Source: Pelolinea sp. (GTDB lineage: Bacteria > Chloroflexota > Anaerolineae > Anaerolineales > Anaerolineaceae). From it: a stretch of 64,000 nt of DNA. The notes below the pieces were generated by a model. It saw only the letters and a list, made by a program, of their open reading frames with translations. It did no database searches and was not told the DNA's origin. The stretch spans positions 1 through 64,000 of the forward strand of contig JAAZOD010000014.1 of assembly GCA_012797975.1 (NCBI GenBank). Direction: 5' to 3'. Position 1 is the stretch's first letter. Each line of letters opens with the position of its first letter. The position numbers and the translations under genes are program-made. Positions 3,229 through 63,953 of this stretch are shown here, piece by piece.

Positions 3229-3422
3229 GTCCGTGATAATACTATGATTTTCCACTGGCGATAAGTGACAGAAACCGAGATGGGCGCCGGATGGCAGAGA
3301 AAATTTCCGGCATCCCTCAATCGCTTTGAACAGCCACCGGGGTGTCTGTGTTTGTTGGATTCGCTGTAGACTGATAGAATACGGATGTAGTTCCAATAAC
3401 CCATTGTTTTTTCTGACCCAGG

Positions 3423-5633
3423 ATGAATAAGAATTCCAAAATCCACAGCGACAGAAGCATCCAGCCACCAATGTACGAGGATCTCTTTCACCACTCCGCC
3501 ACCCCGGCGGCGGTATTTGACTTTAAGGAACACTGCATCCTCGCCAACCATTCTTTCTACGTCCAACTGGGGTACCGGACCGGACAGGAGAGAGAGCCGG
3601 ACCTGGACCTTTTACAGATCTTTGAAGAAAAAGCCCAGGGCACTGCCTTCATCCGGCAACTTCGCGAAAGGCAGATCATCCGCAGGCATGAGATACGGTT
3701 GACGACCAAGAACGGGCGCGGTTTCCCCGTGCTGCTTTCCGGTCGCACGTTCTCCTCGGGGGAAGGGCAATATTTCCATGTCTCCTTCACCGATATTTCC
3801 CAGCTTAAAGAGCTGGAAGAGACCATTCGCAAAGACAGGGCAAAGATGGTCTCGATCATGGAGAACACCGCTGCCGGCCTGTTCTATGTGAACGCCGAAG
3901 GTATCTTGACCAACATCAACCTGAAACTTGTGGAACTGCTGGAAATCGAAGAAAAAGATTTTATCGGGCAGCCCTTCAGGATTTGGATGGGCAAACTGCT
4001 TTCCAAAACCTCAGAACCCGAGATCATCCAGCAGCGTATTTCCGCTGCCCTTGCCAATCTTGACCTGTATCCCAAGGTCGAATTTACCATGAAAACGGGC
4101 ATCACCCTCCATTATGAGATCGCATTTTTCCCAGTTCGGGATGAAGCGAATTCGCCGCTGGGCTGGGGAGGTCTGGTCCAGGATATCACCGAACTCAAAC
4201 AGCAAGTGAATTGGAAATTAGAACTGCTCTCCATTCTTTCCCACGATATTCGCTCCCCGCTGGCCACCCTGAAAGGCCACATTTCCATGCTGCAGGATAA
4301 TTATCAACAGTGGGGCACTGACATGGTCAAAGATTTTTTGGATACCATCGGGAAAAACGTGGATAAGCTCGCGCACCAGGTCGACCGCAACCTGGCGTTG
4401 ACCCGCGTGGAAGGGGGCGATCTGGGGTTGCGCCCGCAAAGCATGGACCTGGTGGCCTGCGCGGAGCAAGCCATCGCCTTCATTTCAGAGAAAAAAGAGC
4501 ACCTGATCATTGATCTGATCCACGATGATGCCCTTCCGAAAACGCGCGCCGATGCCGCACGCATTGAGGAGGTGTTCATCAATTTGCTGGATAATGCCGT
4601 TCGCTACAATCCGGCCGGGAAGAACATCATCATTGAAATCCACGCCAGCGCATCCTGGTTGGTCGTCTCGGTCCGGGATTTTGGAAAAGGAATTCCGGCA
4701 GATAAACAAAAAACGATCTTCGATAAATATGTGCGCGTGGATGAAGAGGAAGGCGGAACAGGGCTGGGATTGTATATTTCGCGCAAGATCATTGAAGCGC
4801 ACGGCGGCCAGATCAGAGTCCAGAGCCCCCTGCCGGATAGGAAGGCGGGCACGGAATTCATCTTCACCCTGCCGGTCACAATTCCTTCCCGTCCGCATGA
4901 CATCACAACGGATCGGCTCCCCGCCGGCACTCCTGCCACCAACCACGAGGCCACCATCCTGGTGATCGAAGACGAAAGCGATTACCTGTTACTTCTAAAA
5001 ACCCTGCTGAGCGAAGAGGGATACCAGGTTGAGACCGTCAGCAACGGTATTTCAGCACTGGATGTGATCAGGATCTCTCCGCCCGATCTCATCCTTCTGG
5101 ATTGGATGCTGCCCGGCATGAACGGATTGGCCGTTTGCCAGGGGATCCGCCGTTCCACCAACATCCCCATCATCGTAGTCACCTCCTGCACCGACCAGGA
5201 AGAGCTGTTGACCGCATTTGACGCCGGAGCAGACGATTATCTGATAAAACCATTCGACCGCAAGGAATTGTTTGCCAGGATTCGGGCGCTTTTGCGCAGG
5301 GAAGAGTCGGCCCAATCCCCTTCCAGGTCCAGCCGTTTCAGCGCGCATGGGTTGGTCATTGATTTCGACACCCGCGAGGTGTGGCTGGACGGAAAGAATC
5401 TCTTCCTCTCCATGACGGAATATGAAATCCTTGAATATCTGGCACGGCACCGGAATCAATTGCTGACCTACGACCAAATCACCGATAGCATTGACGCCTT
5501 GAAACCAGATCAAGACCGGAATGCATTGTATGTGCACATCAGTCGCCTGCGCTCCAAGATCGAACCGGATCCCAAGAACCCCAGCCATCTCATCACCCGT
5601 TGGGGGATCGGTTATGTGTTCATGCCCTACTGA
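3423..5633 (+). CDS. Soluble PAS-PAS histidine kinase fused to receiver and OmpR-type winged helix
   Basis: This 736-residue protein carries a whole two-component pathway in one chain. Two PAS-like sensor domains occupy about 20-130 and 140-265. The HisKA H-box LSHDIRSPLA has the phospho-acceptor His at 274. The HATPase domain has an N-box (NLLDNAVRYNP), G1 (DFGKGIP) and G2 (GGTGLGLYI). A receiver starts near 511, with the acidic pair IEDE, phospho-acceptor Asp560 (LLDWMLPG) and the conserved Lys in LIKPF. The C-terminus (about 640-736) is an OmpR/PhoB winged helix ending RWGIGYVF. There is no membrane segment, so it senses a cytoplasmic cue. It precedes the alpha-crystallin genes at 5767 and 6229 and is a good candidate to control them. 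The fused output domain replaces the usual separate response regulator. Confidence 0.92.
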   Translation: MNKNSKIHSDRSIQPPMYEDLFHHSATPAAVFDFKEHCILANHSFYVQLGYRTGQEREPDLDLLQIFEEKAQGTAFIRQLRERQIIRRHEIRLTTKNGRGFPVLLSGRTFSSGEGQYFHVSFTDISQLKELEETIRKDRAKMVSIMENTAAGLFYVNAEGILTNINLKLVELLEIEEKDFIGQPFRIWMGKLLSKTSEPEIIQQRISAALANLDLYPKVEFTMKTGITLHYEIAFFPVRDEANSPLGWGGLVQDITELKQQVNWKLELLSILSHDIRSPLATLKGHISMLQDNYQQWGTDMVKDFLDTIGKNVDKLAHQVDRNLALTRVEGGDLGLRPQSMDLVACAEQAIAFISEKKEHLIIDLIHDDALPKTRADAARIEEVFINLLDNAVRYNPAGKNIIIEIHASASWLVVSVRDFGKGIPADKQKTIFDKYVRVDEEEGGTGLGLYISRKIIEAHGGQIRVQSPLPDRKAGTEFIFTLPVTIPSRPHDITTDRLPAGTPATNHEATILVIEDESDYLLLLKTLLSEEGYQVETVSNGISALDVIRISPPDLILLDWMLPGMNGLAVCQGIRRSTNIPIIVVTSCTDQEELLTAFDAGADDYLIKPFDRKELFARIRALLRREESAQSPSRSSRFSAHGLVIDFDTREVWLDGKNLFLSMTEYEILEYLARHRNQLLTYDQITDSIDALKPDQDRNALYVHISRLRSKIEPDPKNPSHLITRWGIGYVFMPY

Positions 5634-5766
5634 GTTTCAAAGCTCTTTTTCCTGCACAAACCGAAAGAATTTTGCAAGATTTTCCGCCACCCTGCAAGAA
5701 CTTTGAAAGACCCCTGCTCTAGAATCTTCATTGTTGACCTCATTAAAAAACAATTCAGGAGCAACC

Positions 5767-6144
5767 ATGGAAATATCCCGAGCAATAGATACCGTTGAAA
5801 CTGCAAAACCGGAAGAAGAACCCGCAGGATTCTCGATCGAGCCCGATTGGAGCAGCGTCCCTTCCCCACTTTTTTCGAAGGTCGATTTTGTTGAAAGGAA
5901 GGATCATCTGCTCATTCAAATCGCACTTCCGGATGTCGATCTCTCCGATATCAAGATCACCGCATCGAACAAGACGTTGATCCTGCGCCTGCACCGTGAA
6001 GCGACAGGTAATTTCATCCGCGTCATCTCGCTTCCCACGCTGGTGAATTTCGAGCAGGGCAAAGCGGATTTTTCAAACAACATTTTAACCATCGGCTTTC
6101 CGATCCTGTCCTCCAGCCGTGAAATCGAGATCCAACACAGCTAA
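5767..6144 (+). CDS. Small Hsp20/alpha-crystallin-like protein
   Basis: The start ATG follows AGGAG at 5757-5761. The 125-residue product has an acidic N-terminal tail and then a compact beta-sandwich pattern of the Hsp20/CS type: FVERKDHLLIQIALPDVDL, then IKITASNKTLILRL, then ADFSNNILTIGFP. The last matches the family signature A-x-x-x-N-G-V-L-x-V-x-x-P. The C-terminus ends soon afterwards and lacks a clear I-x-I tail, so it is a minimal member. Small heat-shock proteins hold unfolded clients without ATP. It lies between the hybrid kinase gene and a gene whose N-terminus carries a similar domain, suggesting a common origin or joint assembly of the two. Confidence 0.8.
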   Translation: MEISRAIDTVETAKPEEEPAGFSIEPDWSSVPSPLFSKVDFVERKDHLLIQIALPDVDLSDIKITASNKTLILRLHREATGNFIRVISLPTLVNFEQGKADFSNNILTIGFPILSSSREIEIQHS

Positions 6145-6228
6145 CGAACCCGCGTTTTCCAGAACAAAATCTGTCATGAAGACTGGAGAAACTGAAACAG
6201 TCTTCTATTTCCATACTATGAGGTAAAA

Positions 6229-7866
6229 ATGGCCCATCCTTTCAACCAAAACCGCGTTTCCGGAATTGAAAAACAGCATCTGGTGGTGGATACCCATCTG
6301 TCTGTCGAAGCTTTCACCCTGTACGTTGCGCTGCCACCCATCCATGTACAGGATGAAAAATTGCACATTACCATCCTGGGCGACAATCTCACGATCAATT
6401 ACGAATTTCAACTCGAAAATTTTCACAGCCAGTCCAGGATCATCACACTCCCTGCTCATGTTGACCGGGATAAACTCAGTACGGAATTTGAAAATCGTAC
6501 GCTGCGGCTGGTCCTTCCCATTAATGAGAAAAGAGAACAAGAACAGGATTCCGTCATTTTTCTGACCTTTCCTGAGGAAGCGGGAAAAGCAAAAAAAGAA
6601 TTGGATCTCTCGAGGAACGAGGTGGAAGAACCGCTTGTTTTCCTTCCCAATCCTTTCGTGGCAAGCGCGCGGCCGACCGCCCTGATCGATGCTCTTTTTT
6701 CCGAATCGGCCTGCAAGGAAGTGCGCGAATTCCATGCGACCATCCCCGGATTTGAGACCAGCCCGCTGGTTTCGCTTCCCAACCTGGCACGCATGCTGGG
6801 CATTCGCAGTTTATGGGTCAAGGACGAGTCAAAACGGCTGCAGTTGAACGCCTTCAAGGTTTTGGGCGGATCGTACGCCATCGCCAAAACCATCCAATCC
6901 CTGGTAGGAGATAAAAGCGGCCTTCTGCGTTTCGAAGACCTGACCGCGGAGAGGACAAGCCAGAGGATCAGCGAGATCACCTTCGCTGCCGCAACCGATG
7001 GAAACCACGGCAAGGGTGTGGCGTGGGCAGCAGCACAGCTCGGCTACCGGTCCGTTATTTACGTTCACAAACTGACCTCCCAAGCCCGCATCCAGGCCAT
7101 TGAGAAGAACGGTGCAGAGGTGGTAGTGGTGAATGGGACCTACGATGATGCGGTTCGCCAGGTGAACGAGGATGCACAGCGCAACGGCTGGATGGTCATT
7201 TCAGACACCGCCTGGGAAGGATATGAAGATATCCCGCGCTGGGTGATGCAAGGATACACCACCATGTTTTCCGAGGCACAGAGCCAGTTCGCCGAACAAG
7301 GGATCGAAAAACCAAGCCACATCCTGGTCCAGGCAGGGGTGGGAGCGCTGGCAGCGGCCACCATCGGGTTCTATGCCGCACATTTCGGCCCACAACGCCC
7401 ACGAACGATGGTGGTCGAGCCCAATAAAGCAGCGTGTCTCTTCCACTCCATTGAAATTGGCGATGGTCAGCCCCATTCTTTTGGAGGGGAACTGGATACG
7501 ATCATGGCCGGGCTGGCGTGCGGTGACCCCAATCCACTGGCATGGCCGATCTTGAAAGACTGCACGGACTATTTCCTGCAGTGCCCCGATTATGTGGCCG
7601 CCAAAGGGATGCGCGTCTACGGATTACCGCTGAAAAATGATCCTTGCATCATCTCCGGAGAATCCGGGGCGGTCACCCTGGGCGCCCTGATGTTCCTGAT
7701 GCAGTGGGGGCAGACCGAATCCTTGCGCAAAGAACTGCAGATCGGCCTTCAGTCGGACGTTTTGTTGATCAACTCCGAAGGCAACACCGACCCCGATCAT
7801 TTTCGCAACGTGGTATGGGATGGAGGAGAATCCGTTCCAGCGATCTACAAGAATTACTGGCCATAA
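6229..7866 (+). CDS. Hsp20-like domain fused to diaminopropionate ammonia-lyase
   Basis: One uninterrupted 545-residue frame joins two normally separate proteins. Residues about 15-110 form an alpha-crystallin/CS-like beta-sandwich (LSVEAFTLYVALPP, then FENRTLRLVLPI). A charged linker (about 110-135) leads into a complete fold-type II PLP enzyme. This part carries ETSPLVSLPNLARMLG, the PLP lysine in NAFKVLGGSYA (Lys210), AATDGNHGKGVAWAA (Asp257) and DTAWEGYEDIP (Asp326). The Lys/Asp/Asp set matches the catalytic lysine and two aspartates of E. coli diaminopropionate ammonia-lyase, with the same Asp-Asp spacing of 69. The enzyme splits 2,3-diaminopropionate into pyruvate and ammonia. The ATG has AGGT upstream, and the next gene starts 25 bases after the stop. 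The ammonia-lyase call is strong; the function of the fused chaperone domain is unknown. Confidence 0.9.
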   Translation: MAHPFNQNRVSGIEKQHLVVDTHLSVEAFTLYVALPPIHVQDEKLHITILGDNLTINYEFQLENFHSQSRIITLPAHVDRDKLSTEFENRTLRLVLPINEKREQEQDSVIFLTFPEEAGKAKKELDLSRNEVEEPLVFLPNPFVASARPTALIDALFSESACKEVREFHATIPGFETSPLVSLPNLARMLGIRSLWVKDESKRLQLNAFKVLGGSYAIAKTIQSLVGDKSGLLRFEDLTAERTSQRISEITFAAATDGNHGKGVAWAAAQLGYRSVIYVHKLTSQARIQAIEKNGAEVVVVNGTYDDAVRQVNEDAQRNGWMVISDTAWEGYEDIPRWVMQGYTTMFSEAQSQFAEQGIEKPSHILVQAGVGALAAATIGFYAAHFGPQRPRTMVVEPNKAACLFHSIEIGDGQPHSFGGELDTIMAGLACGDPNPLAWPILKDCTDYFLQCPDYVAAKGMRVYGLPLKNDPCIISGESGAVTLGALMFLMQWGQTESLRKELQIGLQSDVLLINSEGNTDPDHFRNVVWDGGESVPAIYKNYWP

Positions 7867-7891
7867 AAAACGGATGGAAAGGAAGCAGGCA

Positions 7892-8254
7892 GTGACACCG
7901 ATCGACATACAGAAGATCAAAAAAGAATTGGAAGAGAAAAGAAAAGAACTTTTGACTTTTCTGAACTCCCCCCAGGCAAGCGAAAAAGGGAACCAGGATA
8001 ATTATGAGCTGGCACAGCATTACCAGATCTCGGAACAAAAGAACTCATTGAATTCCCATAACCAGAAGCTGCTGGCACAAATCGAGGATGCGCTGGGAAA
8101 AATAGAGAACGGCACCTACGGGGTATGCGACCATTGCGGCAAGCCCATCGATCCTGACCGACTGAAGATCCTGCCGTATGCCAGTTACTGCATGGAATGC
8201 CTGAACAAATTCCCTTCGAAACTGGTCTATTCCTCATCGAACGAGGAGAGGTGA
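7892..8254 (+). CDS. TraR/DksA-family zinc-finger protein
   Basis: The product has an N-terminal helical stretch rich in Lys and Glu (coiled coil, about residues 5-75) and a C-terminal four-cysteine zinc finger: CDHCGKPI, then 17 residues after the second Cys, then CMEC. That is the layout of TraR/DksA proteins, which bind in the RNA polymerase secondary channel and alter promoter response, often under starvation or stress. GTG at 7892 sits 8 bases after an AAAGGAAG ribosome-binding site. Upstream in-frame ATGs at 7874 and 7820 are possible, the latter overlapping the preceding gene. It ends the 3.4-8.3 kb cluster and is followed by a strong terminator. Confidence 0.85.
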   Translation: MTPIDIQKIKKELEEKRKELLTFLNSPQASEKGNQDNYELAQHYQISEQKNSLNSHNQKLLAQIEDALGKIENGTYGVCDHCGKPIDPDRLKILPYASYCMECLNKFPSKLVYSSSNEER

Positions 8255-8292
8255 GACAGGCATTCTGGCAAAACAGCAAATTTCTTAACAGT

Positions 8293-8330
8293 GCATAAAA
8301 AAAGCGAGGGATCCCTCGCTTTTTTTATGC
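8293..8330. terminator. Bidirectional terminator, 19-bp perfect palindrome
   Basis: The 38 bases are an exact inverted repeat with centre GCGAGGGATCCCTCGC and A7/T7 flanks, so it can form a GC stem followed by a U-tract on either strand. It lies between the convergent TraR-like gene and the RpiB-like gene. Confidence 0.9.
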
Positions 8331-8362
8331 ATGGTATTTCCGGCTGCCGCACCAATGATATT

Positions 8363-8836
8363 TCAGGCAGCCATGGATGTCCGCTTCTTATCCAATTCCT
8401 TGATCATCTCCACCTTGGGCAGCGACCTTCCACCGGCAAATTCGCTCTTCAACCAGATATCCAGATTCTTTTTGGCAGCGTCCACGCCGATCACCTGGCT
8501 GCCGAAGGCGGCGATCTGCGCATCGTTGCTGGCACGCGCCCGCTCGGCGGAATAGGGATCATGGATGACCGCGGCACGAATGCCCGGGATCTTGTTGGCG
8601 GTGACGGCCATGCCGATGCCCGTGCCGCACACCAGGATGCCCCGCTCATAACCCTCTTTCAACAGCTTTTCACAGAGAACGATCGCGATCTGGGGATACA
8701 GTGTTTTTTCATTCCCGTCCACCCCCACATCGATCACATCATATCCTTTTTCTTTCAAGTATTCCTTTAATTGGCCCTTCAGAACATAGCCGTTCTCATC
8801 GGATCCAATCAAGATGGAACGTTTGGTTTCAACCAT
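8363..8836 (-). CDS. RpiB/LacAB-family sugar-phosphate isomerase
   Basis: The 157-residue length and the pattern GSDxxGYxLKxxLKxYL, CGTGIGMAVTANK, HDPYSAERARASNDA and GSQVIG identify the RpiB/LacAB family, which interconverts aldose and ketose phosphates through an enediol using the cysteine in CGTGIG. The usual GSDHAG phosphate-binding motif reads GSDENG here, so the conserved His is replaced by Glu, and NN-A is N-D-A. The substrate may therefore differ from ribose-5-phosphate. The minus-strand start is preceded by GGAGATG. It stands alone and converges on the TraR-like gene. A link to the nearby PTS locus is possible but unproven. Confidence 0.85.
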   Translation of the reverse strand: MVETKRSILIGSDENGYVLKGQLKEYLKEKGYDVIDVGVDGNEKTLYPQIAIVLCEKLLKEGYERGILVCGTGIGMAVTANKIPGIRAAVIHDPYSAERARASNDAQIAAFGSQVIGVDAAKKNLDIWLKSEFAGGRSLPKVEMIKELDKKRTSMAA

Positions 8837-9013
8837 TAAAAATCATCTCCATGAGCATTTATCAATAAACTTGAATATCAAAAAACATCAAGAACCAGAT
8901 GAAATTTTAATCGCAAAGCCGCCCTGGAACCGTTCCGCGCAAATTTGCATTTTTGTGAAAAGCATTGCAGTAAGCCGAAAAACACGATCATTTTCCTATG
9001 ACCGCGTCCGCGA

Positions 9014-9041
9014 TGAACCCGGCAGGGTTCGAACCTGCGAC
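9014..9041 (-). pseudogene. 3' fragment of a tRNA gene (T-arm plus acceptor strand only)
   Basis: The minus strand contains a 5-bp T-stem (GCAGG/CCTGC) with a 7-base loop TTCGAAC, followed by CGGGTTC and A as acceptor 3' strand and discriminator. No matching 5' acceptor strand, D-arm or anticodon arm is present in the next 100 bases. Aligned with the 3' end of the intact tRNA at 10203-10274, 24 of 27 bases are identical. It is a remnant or an attachment-site duplicate. Confidence 0.65.
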
Positions 9042-9121
9042 AGGATAGATAATATCTCTTTTCCCTATGAGCATATATAATTGCATTTTCCAAGCATTTT
9101 CTCAAGGATCAAAAATACAGT

Positions 9122-10147
9122 ATGACAAAACAAACTCCGACCACCCGTGATTGGCTCGAAAAAGCGAATGAAGCCACCCAACCCGAAGAGCAAATTCGCT
9201 GCTACACCGAAGCAATCAAATTAAATCCCAAACTAATTCTTGCATATTTCCAACGTGGAAATTGTTATGCAAATCTAGGTCAATCTGTAAACGCGATCGA
9301 AGACTACGATCGTGCTCTCCACCTCGAACCTGAGATGATCGGGGCATATATCAACCGCGGACTGTGCCATGCAAATCTGGATCAACATGAGAAAGCAGTC
9401 GCTGATTACAGTTCGGCTGTCCAGCTCGATCCTGAAAATGCTGAAATCTATTACTACCGCGGAAACAGTTCTGTTCACCTGGAGCAGAATGAAAAAGCGA
9501 TTGAGGATTTCAGCCAGGCGATCAGACTCGACCCGGCCTTTGCGTATGCTTATGGTAATCGCGGTCTCAGCTACTCCAATCTGGGTCAGGATGAAAAAGC
9601 AATCTTTGATTATGACCAGGCCGCCCGTCTTGATCCTGAAAATGCTTCCATCTATTACAATCGTGGAAACAGCCATGCCTACCTGAGGCAACACGAGAAA
9701 GCAATTGACGACTACAGCCGGGCGATCAGCCTCGACCCTGAAATGGGTGAAGCGTATTACAACCGTGGGAATTGTTACGGTCATCTTAAGCAGTATGCAA
9801 AGGCGATCGAAAGTTACAGCCAGGCCATCCAGCTTGAACCCGATATTGCTTATGCCTATAACAACCGCGGACTGAGCTATGCAAATCTGGGACAGCATGA
9901 TAAGGCGATCGCCGATTACGACCGGGCGATCAGTCTCGATCCCGAAATGGAGGATGCGTATTACAACAAAGCCTGTTCCTGTGCTTTTCAGGATAAAACG
10001 AAAGAAGTTCTAATGAATCTTCGCCTGGCTCTCCAGTTCGGCCCGCAGAAATATCACGAGTTGGCAGGAAGTGATACTGCCTTTGCAAAGATAAGGGGGA
10101 ATGCCGATTTCCAGAATTTACTTCAAGAGTATTGCGATAAATGCTGA
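9122..10147 (+). CDS. Tetratricopeptide-repeat protein
   Basis: The 341-residue product consists of about eight consecutive 34-residue TPR units (for example AYNNRGLSYANLGQHDKAIADYDRAI split over two helices) with the conserved pattern A-Y-x-N-R-G, Y-x-x-L-x-x, A-I-x-D-Y and L-D-P. There is no signal peptide or membrane segment, so it should be a cytoplasmic scaffold for protein binding. A short non-repeat tail (about residues 290-341) ends in CDKC. Repeats are very similar at the DNA level, indicating recent internal duplication. It lies between a tRNA 3' fragment and an intact tRNA, so it may be cargo of an integration event. Confidence 0.85.
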   Translation: MTKQTPTTRDWLEKANEATQPEEQIRCYTEAIKLNPKLILAYFQRGNCYANLGQSVNAIEDYDRALHLEPEMIGAYINRGLCHANLDQHEKAVADYSSAVQLDPENAEIYYYRGNSSVHLEQNEKAIEDFSQAIRLDPAFAYAYGNRGLSYSNLGQDEKAIFDYDQAARLDPENASIYYNRGNSHAYLRQHEKAIDDYSRAISLDPEMGEAYYNRGNCYGHLKQYAKAIESYSQAIQLEPDIAYAYNNRGLSYANLGQHDKAIADYDRAISLDPEMEDAYYNKACSCAFQDKTKEVLMNLRLALQFGPQKYHELAGSDTAFAKIRGNADFQNLLQEYCDKC

Positions 10148-10202
10148 CTTTGAGGCCGGTTCAGATTGCCCAGCCCACATCATTTCACACAAAAAGTAGC
10201 AA

Positions 10203-10274
10203 TGGGCCCGGCAGGATTCGAACCTGCGACCAAGCGGTTATGAGCCGCGCGCTCTGCCGCTGAGCTACGGGCCC
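10203..10274 (-). tRNA. tRNA-Ile2 (anticodon CAT, lysidine type)
   Basis: Read on the minus strand, the sequence folds as a cloverleaf with acceptor GGGCCCG/CGGGCCC, D-arm TAGCTCAGCGGCAGAGC and T-arm GCAGGTTCGAATCCTGC. The anticodon loop is CTCATAA. A CAT anticodon could be Met or Ile2. The bases after the anticodon (CATAACCGCTTGGTCGC) closely match bacterial tRNA-Ile2, whose C34 is changed to lysidine by TilS, so Ile2 is preferred. CCA is not encoded. Confidence 0.88.
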
Positions 10275-10445
10275 GGCATCAGCCAGCGCAAGCATTATAA
10301 CATTGAATGTCCCTCGCTCCGATAAAAAGGTTTTTCTCACCATCGTGGAATTGCCGGAGGATCATTTTCCACCCTTTATGCCCATGCTCTTCCCGGTTCA
10401 TTCTCTCAAATTAATCCATTCCATGCTCGATCAGGTATAATTAAG

Positions 10446-10478
10446 GACAATGGAGCCCGGTTGCAGAGCTCCATTGTC
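10446..10478 (-). terminator. Hairpin after the PTS operon
   Basis: A perfect 11-bp stem (GACAATGGAGC / GCTCCATTGTC) with an 11-base loop lies 35 bases beyond the stop of the EIIC gene. On the minus strand it is followed by CTTAATT, a weak U-tract, so termination is likely but may be inefficient. Confidence 0.5.
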
Positions 10479-10512
10479 TGTTTGCTTGGTAAGAGGTGCT
10501 ATACGACTATTC

Positions 10513-11799
10513 TTAGAAGATCAAACTGACGATCTGCTTGAAGAAGATCGGGAAAACGGAATAGTCAAAGTCGTTGGACCAACGTGCAAAATCTGCGATG
10601 GTCGTGGGGAGAGCAGACACGGTCAGGAACTGACCAAATGACATCAGCAGACCGGCCACGATGCCAGCCAAGATAGCACCTCTCCAACCACCCGTGGAAT
10701 TGCCGAACACACCGGCAGGTCCTCCACCAAAGAAGGTGGTGATCACGGGCGGGGTCAGCGCATACAAACCAACAGCTCCAAAGACAACCACACAAACAAT
10801 AACGGTGGCCAGGCAGCTCAAGAAGCCCAGCATCACAGCGGTAGGTGCATAGTTGAAAACCACCGGACAATCCAGGGCGGGGATGGCATTGGGGACGATC
10901 TTTTCAGAGATACCTTTAAAGGCGGTGGTGATTTCTGCGATCATCATGCTCACGCCGGTCAATACGATGGTGATGCCCACGCCGAACTTGACACCCTGGG
11001 TGATGGCATACATGAAGGCGGCTTGACCGCCGCTGATATTGGCTTCGATCCAAGCCGGGCCAGCCAGCGCAACGCAGATCACATACAGCAGGGTCATGAC
11101 GATCGCGGTGGAAACCGTGATATCTTTCAAGAAGTTCAGAGATTCAGGGATCTTCAGATCTTCGGATGATTCATCCTTTTTACCCTTGAAAGCATTGCCG
11201 ACCAAAGAACCAACAATCACGCCGAAGGACGTAGTATGCCCGTAAGCCAGATCATTGGAACCGGTAACTTTGCGCATGAATGGCTGCACCAGGGCAGGAG
11301 ATAACGTGCAGTAAAGACCGGTGAGGATACCACCCAGGGCAATCAGCAGTGATTTATTGGGGGTGGGAACGACCTCAATGAAAATCGCCAGATAGACGAA
11401 AATGATGTAATAGGTCTGGTGGGCGGTAAGGTAGACATATTTGAACTTTGTGAAGCGAGCTAACAGTAAGTTCACAAAGAACCCAACCACCATGATGATG
11501 GCGATCGTTGATGCCCAGCTCGATGTGAAGGCATCGGTGCCCATGCCGGTCGTGGTCGCCTGAACGCCGATGACCTTGTTCAGAATGGTGGCGATGGGAA
11601 GAACGATGCCAGCCAACAATGAAGTACCCTGTGAAAGGATCAGGTACCCAATGCCAGTTTTAAAGGAACCGGTAATGACATCCTGGATGGGTTTCTTCTG
11701 AACGATCAAGCCAAGCATGGCGACCAAGCCCAACAGGATAAAGGGCTGGTTGAAGATGTAAGTGCTCATGAAATGTACAATCGCATTTAATACTGCCAT
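10513..11799 (-). CDS. PTS ascorbate-type EIIC permease (UlaA/SgaT family)
   Basis: The 428-residue protein is highly hydrophobic with about ten membrane segments. Family-typical stretches are the N-terminus with QPFILLGLVAMLGLIVQKK, GTSLLAGIVLPI, LTAHQTYYI, SNDLAYGHTTSFGV and FFGGGPAGVFGNSTGGWRGA. These belong to the L-ascorbate/galactitol superfamily of PTS permeases, which carry and phosphorylate sugar with partner EIIA and EIIB. It is the last gene of an operon read leftward: regulator, EIIA, NanE, SIS isomerase, EIIB, EIIC. Its start has AGGAGGTTC upstream. The sugar is probably an acetylated amino sugar because NanE lies in the operon, but that is inference. Confidence 0.88.
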   Translation of the reverse strand: MAVLNAIVHFMSTYIFNQPFILLGLVAMLGLIVQKKPIQDVITGSFKTGIGYLILSQGTSLLAGIVLPIATILNKVIGVQATTTGMGTDAFTSSWASTIAIIMVVGFFVNLLLARFTKFKYVYLTAHQTYYIIFVYLAIFIEVVPTPNKSLLIALGGILTGLYCTLSPALVQPFMRKVTGSNDLAYGHTTSFGVIVGSLVGNAFKGKKDESSEDLKIPESLNFLKDITVSTAIVMTLLYVICVALAGPAWIEANISGGQAAFMYAITQGVKFGVGITIVLTGVSMMIAEITTAFKGISEKIVPNAIPALDCPVVFNYAPTAVMLGFLSCLATVIVCVVVFGAVGLYALTPPVITTFFGGGPAGVFGNSTGGWRGAILAGIVAGLLMSFGQFLTVSALPTTIADFARWSNDFDYSVFPIFFKQIVSLIF

Positions 11800-11881
11800 T
11801 TTAAGAACCTCCTAATTCTAATTTTTTCCTTTTTTATTTTTCGCTTGCAGTTCATTCTTTTTATTTTTCGATACCTGCCTC

Positions 11882-12178
11882 CTAGATCAGTTTTTTTTCT
11901 TTCAAGTAAGCGCCTATTTTTGTTTTTAGTTCCTCTTTATCCATCAGGTTCTTGATCACCACCACGGAAGGGCAGAAAGATCTGGCTTCGGCAGAAAAAG
12001 TCTCGAAAGTGATGATCAGGTCACACTTCGTGCCCTTGGCACGTGACATGCTGGTGTTGATCACCTGCACCCTGAAAGGCAACGCAAAGCTCTTGAACGC
12101 CTCATCCACATTCACCCTCAATAAAGTGCTGGTGCCAACCCCAGCGCCACAAACAGTCAATACCTTCAAATCAGCCAT
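11882..12178 (-). CDS. PTS EIIB component (UlaB/SgaB type)
   Basis: The 98-residue cytosolic protein begins with KVLTVCGAGVGTS, the phosphocysteine loop of lactose/ascorbate-type EIIB domains, and ends with an amphipathic helix (KTKIGAYLKEKKL). It accepts phosphate from the EIIA encoded at 13706-14143 and passes it to sugar bound in the EIIC. AAGGAGAACC precedes the start. The gene lies about 80 bases upstream of the EIIC gene in the same direction. Confidence 0.88.
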   Translation of the reverse strand: MADLKVLTVCGAGVGTSTLLRVNVDEAFKSFALPFRVQVINTSMSRAKGTKCDLIITFETFSAEARSFCPSVVVIKNLMDKEELKTKIGAYLKEKKLI

Positions 12179-12205
12179 TCGGTTCTCCTTAACCTCGCAT
12201 ACTCT

Positions 12206-12955
12206 CTATAAATTCCTGATCCTGTAGAAATATTTGTCCATCAGGCGATCATTATGCTCTTTGGCATCAGGCATCTCATAGGTCAAATGACCGTTGTAAT
12301 AAACGTCAGGCGTGAACCCTTGTTTGACCAGATTGTCACAGGTTTGCACCAGGAGAGAATTCAAAAGGAAAACGGTGGGGATGGTGGAAGTGGAGCCAAC
12401 CTTCATCGGAAAGCCCTCCAGGGCGACGGCTGCATCGCCGATCAGCGAACAATTATCGATGACCACATCCGCATAATCCTTCAATTTTTTCCCGGAAGAA
12501 TGCTGGGTGGTCAGAAAGTCCGAATACTCCACGTTGGTGAACACGATCAACGGCAAACCGCGTTGTTTGGCTTCCATCGCCACATCGATGGTAATGGCAT
12601 TGTTTCCGGAGTTGGAAATACAGATCATGACATCGGGGGGAGTGATGCGCTGATAATTCATCAAGACCTGCCCCATGCCTTCGATCTTTTCCATGAATCC
12701 GCTCTTCGTGATCTCGTTGATCCCCGCCACACTTGGTTCAAAGATGGCATGCACATTGGCCATGGTAGCCGCGCGCCAAAAGACATCTTCGGTGACAAGA
12801 CCGGAATGACCGCAGCCAAAAAGGTGGATGATCCCTCCCTTTTTGGTGCAATCCGTCAGGATGTCGGCCGCCTTTAAAATATTCTTTTCCTGTGTCTCTT
12901 GCGCTTTTTTCACAACCTCTTGCATGATCGAGAAATATTCCTGCCATACTTTCAT
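12206..12955 (-). CDS. SIS-domain sugar-phosphate isomerase (UPF0309-like), first of two paralogues
   Basis: The 249-residue protein is a single SIS domain. The nucleotide-free phosphosugar-binding loop LFGCGHSGL occupies about residues 45-53, ISNSGNNAITIDVA the second phosphate-binding stretch, and GDAAVALEG the C-terminal part. SIS domains bind phosphosugars and act as isomerases or sensors. Gene order within a PTS operon suggests it works on the imported sugar phosphate together with NanE. A similar protein lies at 16461-17192 in the same locus. AAAGGAGAG precedes the start. Confidence 0.8.
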   Translation of the reverse strand: MKVWQEYFSIMQEVVKKAQETQEKNILKAADILTDCTKKGGIIHLFGCGHSGLVTEDVFWRAATMANVHAIFEPSVAGINEITKSGFMEKIEGMGQVLMNYQRITPPDVMICISNSGNNAITIDVAMEAKQRGLPLIVFTNVEYSDFLTTQHSSGKKLKDYADVVIDNCSLIGDAAVALEGFPMKVGSTSTIPTVFLLNSLLVQTCDNLVKQGFTPDVYYNGHLTYEMPDAKEHNDRLMDKYFYRIRNL

Positions 12956-12976
12956 AATTTTTACTCTCCTTTGTCG

Positions 12977-13690
12977 TTAAAGTTTTGCATCCTGCAAAAT
13001 TGTCTTCACAATCTTTTTCGGCTCAGTAATAGAGGTGCCGATCACAACACAATAGGCGCCAGCATCCAGTGCTTTTCGCATCTTTTCACCATTCGTGATC
13101 CGACCTTCCGCCACGATATGCTTCACACCCGCTTTCTTCAATTCCGCAATGATCTCATAATCGGGATCGGGGCTGGGCAGAGTGCCAAAGCGGATCGGAT
13201 TTTTCGAATAGGGGGTATATCCCGAAAGGGTGGTGCCCACCATATCCGCCCCGTATTCCCATGCTGCGACACCTTCCTCGAGGGTGGAAATATCCGTGAT
13301 AAGGAAAGCATTGAATTGACGCTTGATCTCGGAAATGAATTCGCGGACGGTCAGAGTGTCATAACGCTCGCGAAGCGTGCCGTCGATGGCGATCGCATCC
13401 GCCCCGGCTTTCAGCAACACTTCCACTTCTTTTAAGGTAGGAGTGATCCTGAAATCGCCCTCGAACATGTCGCCACTTTTATAGATCTTCTTGATGCCGA
13501 TGACAGGTACCTGCACGGCTTTTTTGATCGCAGACACGTTATCGTAATTGGTACGGATAGCACATGCGCCGCCGACAATGCAGCTATTCGCCACACAGAG
13601 CATGGTTTCAGGTCGAGCCATTTCTTCATTGAAATCCGCGCCCGCGTAACACGATACGATCAATCCATTCTTGAACTTTTCCAGCAGCAT
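12977..13690 (-). CDS. nanE: N-acetylmannosamine-6-phosphate 2-epimerase
   Basis: The 237-residue TIM-barrel protein matches NanE throughout: GLIVSCYAGA at the start, IRTNYDNVSAIKKAV, VPVIGIKKIY with the lysine expected for proton abstraction, GADAIAIDGT, DISTLEEG, GADMVGTTLSGYTP and the catalytic-type glutamate in IVAEGRI. The enzyme converts ManNAc-6-phosphate to GlcNAc-6-phosphate. NagA and NagB, which would continue the pathway, are not in this window. GGAGAG lies just upstream of the start. Confidence 0.9.
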   Translation of the reverse strand: MLLEKFKNGLIVSCYAGADFNEEMARPETMLCVANSCIVGGACAIRTNYDNVSAIKKAVQVPVIGIKKIYKSGDMFEGDFRITPTLKEVEVLLKAGADAIAIDGTLRERYDTLTVREFISEIKRQFNAFLITDISTLEEGVAAWEYGADMVGTTLSGYTPYSKNPIRFGTLPSPDPDYEIIAELKKAGVKHIVAEGRITNGEKMRKALDAGAYCVVIGTSITEPKKIVKTILQDAKL

Positions 13691-13705
13691 GAAATCTCTC
13701 CTTTT

Positions 13706-14143
13706 CTAAAACTCGATATCCTTAAGGCAAACCGCTTCTTGCAGGGCTTGCAAGTTTTTCTCTTCCGAAATGAATTCAGCGACCGCTTTGAACATCACCA
13801 GATGCTCCTTATTCGTCCGTGCCGCAATGGCAAACAGATAATGGACAGGGTCATTATCCTTGTTCCCGAAATTCACTCCCTGTGGAATGGTCAACAGTGC
13901 AACCTGATTCTTGAACACATTCCCGTTCGGGCGCGCGTGTGCCAGCGCGACCCCCGGCATGATGACAATATAAGGCCCGTTCGTCTCCACCATTTTGACC
14001 ATGTCCTCACGGTATCGCTCGTTAATGCTTCCCGAACCGATCAGCATGTTCCCCGCGAAACGGACCGCATCCTGCCAGCTACTAAAGTTCTCATTGAGAT
14101 GGATGTTTTCTTCAGAAATAAAATCTTTCAGTGTCATGCTCAC
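13706..14143 (-). CDS. PTS EIIA component (mannitol/ascorbate type, UlaC-like)
   Basis: The 145-residue protein is a PTS EIIA type-2 domain. The segment PGVALAHARP carries the phosphohistidine, and LLTIPQGVNFGNKDNDPVHYLFAIAA is the typical core. It receives phosphate from HPr, plausibly the one encoded at 17227-17502. A GTG start at 14143 overlaps the TGA of the regulator gene (GTGA), which implies translational coupling. An ATG two codons in, at 14137, is the alternative start. Confidence 0.88.
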   Translation of the reverse strand: MSMTLKDFISEENIHLNENFSSWQDAVRFAGNMLIGSGSINERYREDMVKMVETNGPYIVIMPGVALAHARPNGNVFKNQVALLTIPQGVNFGNKDNDPVHYLFAIAARTNKEHLVMFKAVAEFISEEKNLQALQEAVCLKDIEF

Positions 14144-63833: not shown

Positions 63834-63953
63834 CTCTTGGCAACGACCTACTCTCCCGGGGGGTCGCCCCCCAAGTACCATCGGCGCTGACGGCCTTAAC
63901 TTCCGGGTTCGGGATGTTACCGGGTGTACCACCGTCGCTCAAATCACCAAGAG
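63834..63953 (-). rRNA. rrf: 5S ribosomal RNA
   Basis: The 120 bases read on the minus strand as a complete 5S rRNA: the terminal helix CTCTTGG/CCAAGAG, the loop with CCCGAACCCGGAAGTTAAG, and GGGAGAGTAGGTC near the 3' end. A TTTTTTT tract follows its 3' end. The 23S gene should lie to the right of the window. Nothing else is seen from 63954 to 64000. Confidence 0.96.

Follow-up and report, generated by a model that had tools for sequence, protein, structure and literature searches.

In the HTCS proteins of Bacteroides a sensor kinase, a receiver and a DNA-binding domain are joined in one chain; PMC11253607 describes them as membrane sensors with AraC output and states that tethered DNA-binding domains need silencing. 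Whether two-component systems take one-chain or two-chain forms depends, according to PMC3018481, on membrane sensors and on DNA-binding outputs. PhoB, an OmpR-type regulator, binds two 11-bp direct repeats of 7+4 bp (PMC2648988 and PMC4971064). Sulfolobus Hsp20.1 protects its substrate as a dimer (PMC9133787), and YgeX converts diaminopropionate to pyruvate and ammonia in the reductive urate pathway (PMC12507026). Here we describe a locus that combines relatives of these parts, a four-gene cluster at positions 3423-8254 of a 64,000-nucleotide stretch of Pelolinea sp. DNA. This stretch, called the window below, corresponds to contig C30 in a genome assembly (G000) of 2.57 Mb that is 98.5% complete; G001 to G004 denote other species of the same genus.

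Open reading frames (ORFs) of four + strand genes fill the interval 3423-8254, where an earlier note on this DNA had placed a cluster of the same composition closed by a strong terminator. Both points were confirmed, the domains by Pfam and the terminator hairpin by folding. The genes encode a one-protein two-component regulator of 736 residues (3423..5633), a stand-alone Hsp20-like protein of 125 residues (5767..6144), a fusion of 545 residues between an Hsp20-like domain and a diaminopropionate ammonia-lyase (6229..7866), and a DksA/TraR-like protein (7892..8254). The most likely start of the second gene is ATG 5767, downstream of the TTG 5731 that opens the ORF; for the fourth it is ATG 7874 or GTG 7892, not 7820. 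We read the cluster as a genus-specific, locally self-regulated operon in which the regulator would switch on the three downstream genes, and we put the probability of this explanation as a whole at roughly 0.55.

The same four genes are found in the same order in G002, where the proteins are 73, 52, 68 and 61% identical to those of the window and the gene lengths are nearly the same. Because this order is kept at 52-73% identity, the four genes are more than chance neighbours, and the proposal that they form a conserved unit is borne out by the second species. In G001 the end of the lyase and the DksA-like gene are present on a contig that ends inside the lyase. The suggestion that the order might hold across Anaerolineae was not supported: the unit was found within one genus only, in full in G002 and in part in G001. 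Lyase matches at E <=1e-50 were detected in 36 of 147 genomes of the family, and besides G000 and G002 none of them aligns before query residue 123, the match in G001 being cut. In a sample of 400 genomes of the phylum, in which at most three candidates were scored per genome so that misses are possible, 23 had a lyase match at this threshold and the window's own was alone in reaching the Hsp20-like part. In the 147 family genomes and the phylum sample, the fusion was thus found in the genus only, and the lyases of other relatives stand alone. A search of 60 relatives yielded close kin of the Hsp20-like protein only in G002 and of the DksA-like protein only in G001 and G002. We conclude from these comparisons that the unit arose or survived at the level of the genus and is not a feature of Anaerolineae as a whole.

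The surroundings are shared in part as well. A TPR protein encoded at 9122-10147 of the window (341 residues) has a counterpart at 6618-7640 of the G002 locus L114 (340 residues), with 217 of 340 aligned residues identical. The gene lies downstream of the cluster in the window and directly upstream of the regulator in G002. A tRNA-Met gene is located downstream in the window and a tRNA-Met-like stretch downstream in G002. This placement points to one inherited locus with local rearrangement.

The regulator contains, by Pfam, two PAS domains, HisKA, HATPase_c, Response_reg and Trans_reg_C. It is a hybrid histidine kinase, with H274 of HisKA in the expected motif and HATPase_c and the receiver in a single chain, and it ends in an OmpR/PhoB-type output: the receiver (PF00072, 102.3 bits), whose phospho-acceptor D560 sits in LILLDW, and the winged helix (PF00486, 70.2 bits) both score above cut-off. 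No membrane-like stretch was detected in this protein, the highest mean hydropathy over 19 residues being 1.2 as compared with 2.3 and 2.8 in two membrane-like proteins of the window. A cytoplasmic sensor that carries its own DNA-binding output, as had been proposed, is therefore what the chain looks like. The G002 ortholog is 73% identical and of equal length, and the winged-helix segment NALYVHISRLR is the same in both. The window regulator shares with the Bacteroides HTCS the joining of sensor kinase, receiver and DNA-binding domain within a single chain; unlike the HTCS described in PMC11253607, it is soluble and has an OmpR-type output. Its soluble sensor fits the gene-organisation pattern outlined in PMC3018481.

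In the family, where up to seven candidates were scored per genome and misses are possible, every other listed match to the regulator has an internal stop, and at 10 checked loci the kinase and the regulator are separate neighbouring ORFs. In the phylum sample (at most two candidates scored per genome, misses again possible) at least 60 of the matches listed lack an internal stop, all of them outside the family. The notion that the fused architecture is peculiar to the genus was dropped, since the fused form recurs in the phylum outside the family. Upstream of the regulator gene both species keep TTGTT(A/G), a 17-base spacer and TAGAATACG; in the window this is a weak promoter-like element, TTGTTG-17-TAGAAT, at 3352..3380 (+ strand). 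It was read from the two upstream sequences and was not flagged by the consensus promoter scan. A separate promoter of the regulator at TTGTT(A/G)-17-TAGAATACG is plausible.

The gap that separates the regulator from the Hsp20-like gene measures 133 bases in G000 and 130 in G002, and in both it holds two pairs of the heptamer NGMAAGA at 11-bp spacing. Box 1 (5662..5679, + strand; CGAAAGAATTTTGCAAGA in G000) reads CGAAAGA-ATTT-TGCAAGA, a 7+4+7 arrangement with an 11-bp period, and box 2 (5693..5710, + strand; TGCAAGAACTTTGAAAGA), which begins 31 bp after box 1, reads TGCAAGA-ACTT-TGAAAGA; the G002 counterparts are TGCAAGAATTTTGCAAGA and AGAAAGTGTTTTGAAAGA. The two pairs begin 105 and 74 bases upstream of the start codon in both species. 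Exactly 9 bp separate box 2 from a putative -10 element, TAGAAT at 5720..5725 (+ strand) in G000 and TAAAAT at the same place in G002. Between the two species box 1 is identical at 16 of 18 positions and box 2 at 13 of 18; agreement drops to 9 of 25 positions upstream of the boxes, 5 of 13 in the stretch that separates them and 17 of 41 downstream. A separate observation concerns TGACCTCA at 5733-5740, just 3' of the -10-like element, which is identical in G000 and G002 despite differing surroundings.

A period test that used no motif, run on the right-anchored alignment of the two species, gave offset 11 as the best among 8-15 (23 vs at most 17). This score was reached in 0 of 4000 shuffles of the alignment columns and in 0 of 4000 shuffles of G002 alone. 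The exact pattern GMAAGANNTTTGMAAGA occurs three times in the five genus genomes, always in this gap (two sites in G000, one in G002), and the second G002 box departs from it by one mismatch. With at most one mismatch allowed, GMAAGANNTTTGMAAGA has 3, 2, 4, 3 and 3 sites in G000 to G004, and the reversed-pattern control has 6, 4, 3, 2 and 1; outside the gap, near matches are therefore roughly as frequent as those of the control. Like the pho box of PhoB (PMC2648988, PMC4971064), the boxes are made of two 11-bp direct repeats of 7+4 bp; unlike it, they have the half-site NGMAAGA instead of CTGTCAT, form a double box and apparently serve a single target. The consensus scan found no sigma-70 site ahead of the Hsp20-like gene; boxes that stand in for the -35 element would lead to such a result, yet it is no evidence that they do. 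The proposal that the winged helix binds within 5634-5766 has gained a conserved candidate double site of OmpR/PhoB type ahead of a -10-like element, a site predicted from sequence only. The double site and the unmatched exact motif support a self-contained regulatory unit that would have a single target.

The stand-alone Hsp20-like protein passes the Pfam cut-off for ArsA_HSP20 (PF17886, 30.5 vs 22.5 bits) and falls just under that for HSP20 (PF00011, 20.0 vs 20.8 bits). The name Hsp20 is borderline for both such domains of the cluster, PF00011 being below cut-off in each and ArsA_HSP20 passing for the stand-alone protein alone. Its AlphaFold model is a beta-sandwich with a mean pLDDT (the AlphaFold confidence score) of 73.7, block means of 85-92 over residues 41-110 and low values at the N-terminus. 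Foldseek matched this model to the small heat-shock proteins Hsp16.5 and Hsp20.1 at E ~1e-6; against 4rzk_A the TM score is 0.76 by target length, with a root-mean-square deviation (rmsd) of 2.1 over 80 columns. The model thus indicates an alpha-crystallin fold. In alignment A3, which consists of 13 chosen rows and leaves out the fetched Hsp20 loci L001 and L003, about 15 residues between strands 5 and 7 are missing in both cluster proteins and present in all 11 Hsp20 proteins of related genomes. Bacterial small heat-shock proteins use this beta6 loop for strand-swap dimers. The C-terminal I-x-I is kept in both cluster proteins (REIEIQ and REINIQ).

The protein is accordingly like Sulfolobus Hsp20.1 (4rzk) and Methanocaldococcus jannaschii Hsp16.5 in its beta-sandwich and its C-terminal I-x-I, and unlike small heat-shock proteins of that type in lacking the residues between strands 5 and 7. 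The earlier note had called it a small heat-shock protein. The fold and the I-x-I agree with that name, whereas the missing loop and the PF00011 score do not, and the label is uncertain because both Hsp20-like domains of the cluster lack the dimer-strand loop.

In the fusion, Pfam detected PALP and a sub-threshold HSP20-like match; the Hsp20-like domain spans about residues 1-105 and is joined by a linker to the lyase at about 133-545. The lyase exceeds the curated NCBIfam cut-off for diaminopropionate ammonia-lyase (NF006058, 519.8 vs 276 bits) and narrowly misses the stricter TIGR03528 (512.6 vs 532.25 bits). Residues K210, D257, D326, C403 and C431 align to K77, D120, D189, C265 and C291 of E. 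coli 4d9g, and G002 has all five as well; we take them to be the lysine that carries pyridoxal 5'-phosphate (PLP), two catalytic aspartates and paired cysteines. Superposition of the model on solved diaminopropionate ammonia-lyases gave Z 60-63 and rmsd 1.2-1.5 over 380-388 residues (53 for the apo form), whereas other PLP enzymes gave Z of about 40 and below. The structure-match list for the whole fusion was filled by the lyase and is uninformative on the fused domain. The lyase domain is thus a predicted diaminopropionate ammonia-lyase with its active-site residues intact. It resembles the E. coli (4d9g, 4d9i, 4d9m) and Salmonella (5ygr) enzymes throughout the lyase structure and at the aligned active-site residues, and differs from them in the extra N-terminal Hsp20-like domain. 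The genome differs as well, having no urate-pathway reductase over cut-off: the best match to YgfK in G000 scores 78 bits against a cut-off of 835, and one of the 41 genomes searched has YgfK over it. The urate pathway was for this reason rejected as the context of the lyase in G000.

These properties of the lyase bear on a rival explanation, a plain catabolic operon in which the regulator senses an amino-acid or nitrogen cue and induces the breakdown of diaminopropionate to pyruvate and ammonia. In such an operon the Hsp20-like domains would do no more than keep the lyase soluble or oligomeric, and no stress response would be involved. Of the downstream products the lyase is the best conserved (76% identity between G000 and G002), its active site is intact by alignment, it has near kin in the 36 family genomes noted above, and diaminopropionate is what YgeX acts on in the reductive urate pathway (PMC12507026). 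Against this stand the low YgfK score and the four-gene unit itself, which contains no transporter or pathway gene and in which co-expression of a DksA-like and a separate Hsp20-like protein would, as a matter of general knowledge, be unusual for a catabolic operon. We consider this explanation possible but unlikely, and favour the self-regulated operon.

A horizontal origin of the lyase was considered by means of a tree. In it the two fusions group together among the Chloroflexota lyases (100/100, stem 0.51); the fork that holds them is unresolved and other phyla sit close. The tree was built from 35 rows chosen from the fetched lyases, and alignment A2 from 34 chosen rows. In the species collection, from which 80 of 108 confirmed lyase loci were kept, none of the 80 aligns before query residue 109 and none has an Hsp20-like domain match; other N-terminal extensions do occur there. 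No shared neighbour was seen at the loci of five relatives with a stand-alone lyase, compared by eye over the first 70 residues of each ORF.

That the N-terminal part of the fusion is related to Hsp20 is suggested by profile comparison with an Hsp20 alignment (probability 97.4, E 8.9e-12 for a single comparison) and by 29% pairwise identity over 76 residues to the neighbouring Hsp20-like protein. Some PLP enzymes are said to release 2-aminoacrylate, which harms other PLP enzymes; that such damage bears on the chaperone partner here is speculation.

The DksA/TraR-like protein matches zf-dskA_traR (PF01258) at 46.3 bits against a cut-off of 24.9. In both species it has CxxC...CxxC and the tip DNYELA or DDYELA, a D-x-x-E-x-A motif that presumably is the acidic coiled-coil tip of DksA/TraR. 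With its Cys4 zinc finger and acidic tip it is like the DksA/TraR family, and unlike the family proper it does not reach the NCBIfam cut-offs for DksA and for DksA-like proteins (TIGR02420, 54.9 vs 115.5 bits; NF033459, 76.5 vs 105 bits). It is the sole zf-dskA_traR match in G000, and in the genus only the cluster-bearing species, three of five, have one.

In the mechanism that we propose, the regulator would be produced from its own weak promoter and a cytoplasmic signal would act on its PAS domains. H274 would then be phosphorylated and the phosphate passed to D560 in the same chain, after which the winged helix could bind boxes 1 and 2 as two dimers. The bound regulator would take the place of a -35 element and recruit RNA polymerase to the -10 at 5720, giving a single transcript of the Hsp20-like, fusion and DksA-like genes that would end at the hairpin 8291-8332. 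The lyase domain would cleave diaminopropionate or a similar amino acid to pyruvate and ammonia. The Hsp20-like domain of the fusion would most likely dock the lyase on the Hsp20-like protein encoded next to it: the C-terminal I-x-I tail of that protein could hold the fused domain and so bring enzyme and chaperone together in one complex. The DksA-like protein would tune RNA polymerase. The cluster may also have a role in stress.

Several observations weigh against this explanation. G003 (80% complete) and G004 (85% complete) have none of the four genes, which makes the unit dispensable. Sequence comparison shows no such terminator at the G002 locus. Shuffles of G000 alone reached the 11-bp score in 30 of 4000 cases, the boxes were seen in two species only, and box 2 is the less conserved. 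The motif was moreover derived from the gap in which it was then counted, so the genome count shows only the absence of further exact copies. As to the fused domain, its Pfam score is sub-threshold (19.7 vs 22.5 bits, and just 13.2 bits in G002), the AlphaFold block means are low across residues 1-130 (pLDDT 33-61), and it evolves fast, with 43% identity between G000 and G002 against the 76% of the lyase. For these three reasons the docking could be wrong.

The quick divergence of the fused domain, and of the linker (33%), would also be expected if the fusion were recent and functionally neutral, the genes neighbours through shared history only and the boxes sites of another OmpR-type regulator. 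The confinement of the fusion to one genus agrees with this, and sequence alone cannot tie the boxes to the regulator next to them. However, the frame of the fusion, the gene order and the boxes have been kept although the proteins have diverged to as little as 52-73% identity and the G+C content of the cluster differs between the two species (52% vs 41%), and the boxes were not found elsewhere in the genome, contrary to what sites of a general regulator would show. A neutral history of this kind is therefore, in our judgement, quite improbable, and the self-regulated operon remains the explanation that we prefer.

The hairpin at 8291..8332, a putative bidirectional intrinsic terminator between the cluster and a convergent RpiB/LacAB-like gene, has a 4-nt loop and a stem of 19 uninterrupted base pairs (-29.9 kcal/mol, z -7.4). 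It was found by folding; the consensus scan flagged no terminator-like site there. An 8-bp perfect inverted repeat with a 12-nt loop lies between the Hsp20-like and fusion genes (6178..6205, + strand) and was not seen in the matching G002 gap. Beyond the terminator, the minus-strand run 8363-14143 looks by eye like an operon for sugar uptake and breakdown, its RpiB/LacAB-like member being assigned by Pfam and the PTS, SIS and NanE-like labels coming from reading the ORFs only. A 5S rRNA gene lies on the minus strand at 63835-63951, close to the window end.

We found no report of the fusion or of the operon in the literature, the search covering open-licence PMC papers only; within what was searched the combination, the fusion and the operator are new, and the parts are known. 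A more specific idea, tentative and rather unlikely, is that a chaperone fold has been recruited to target a metabolic enzyme: a loop-less Hsp20-like hetero-complex, held by the I-x-I tail and a groove, would bring the lyase to damaged protein or to a storage particle. Control would lie with a one-protein two-component switch that has no other target operon and that supplies an RNA-polymerase modulator at the same time. Pairing of the two Hsp20-like proteins, if it occurs, would mean that the coupling of an amino-acid enzyme to a chaperone-like scaffold is genetically encoded. The regulator and its single, precisely spaced double site may likewise offer a compact model of how a soluble sensor can work when it is joined to a DNA-binding domain of its own, and the readable operator would make both the coupling and the model directly testable.

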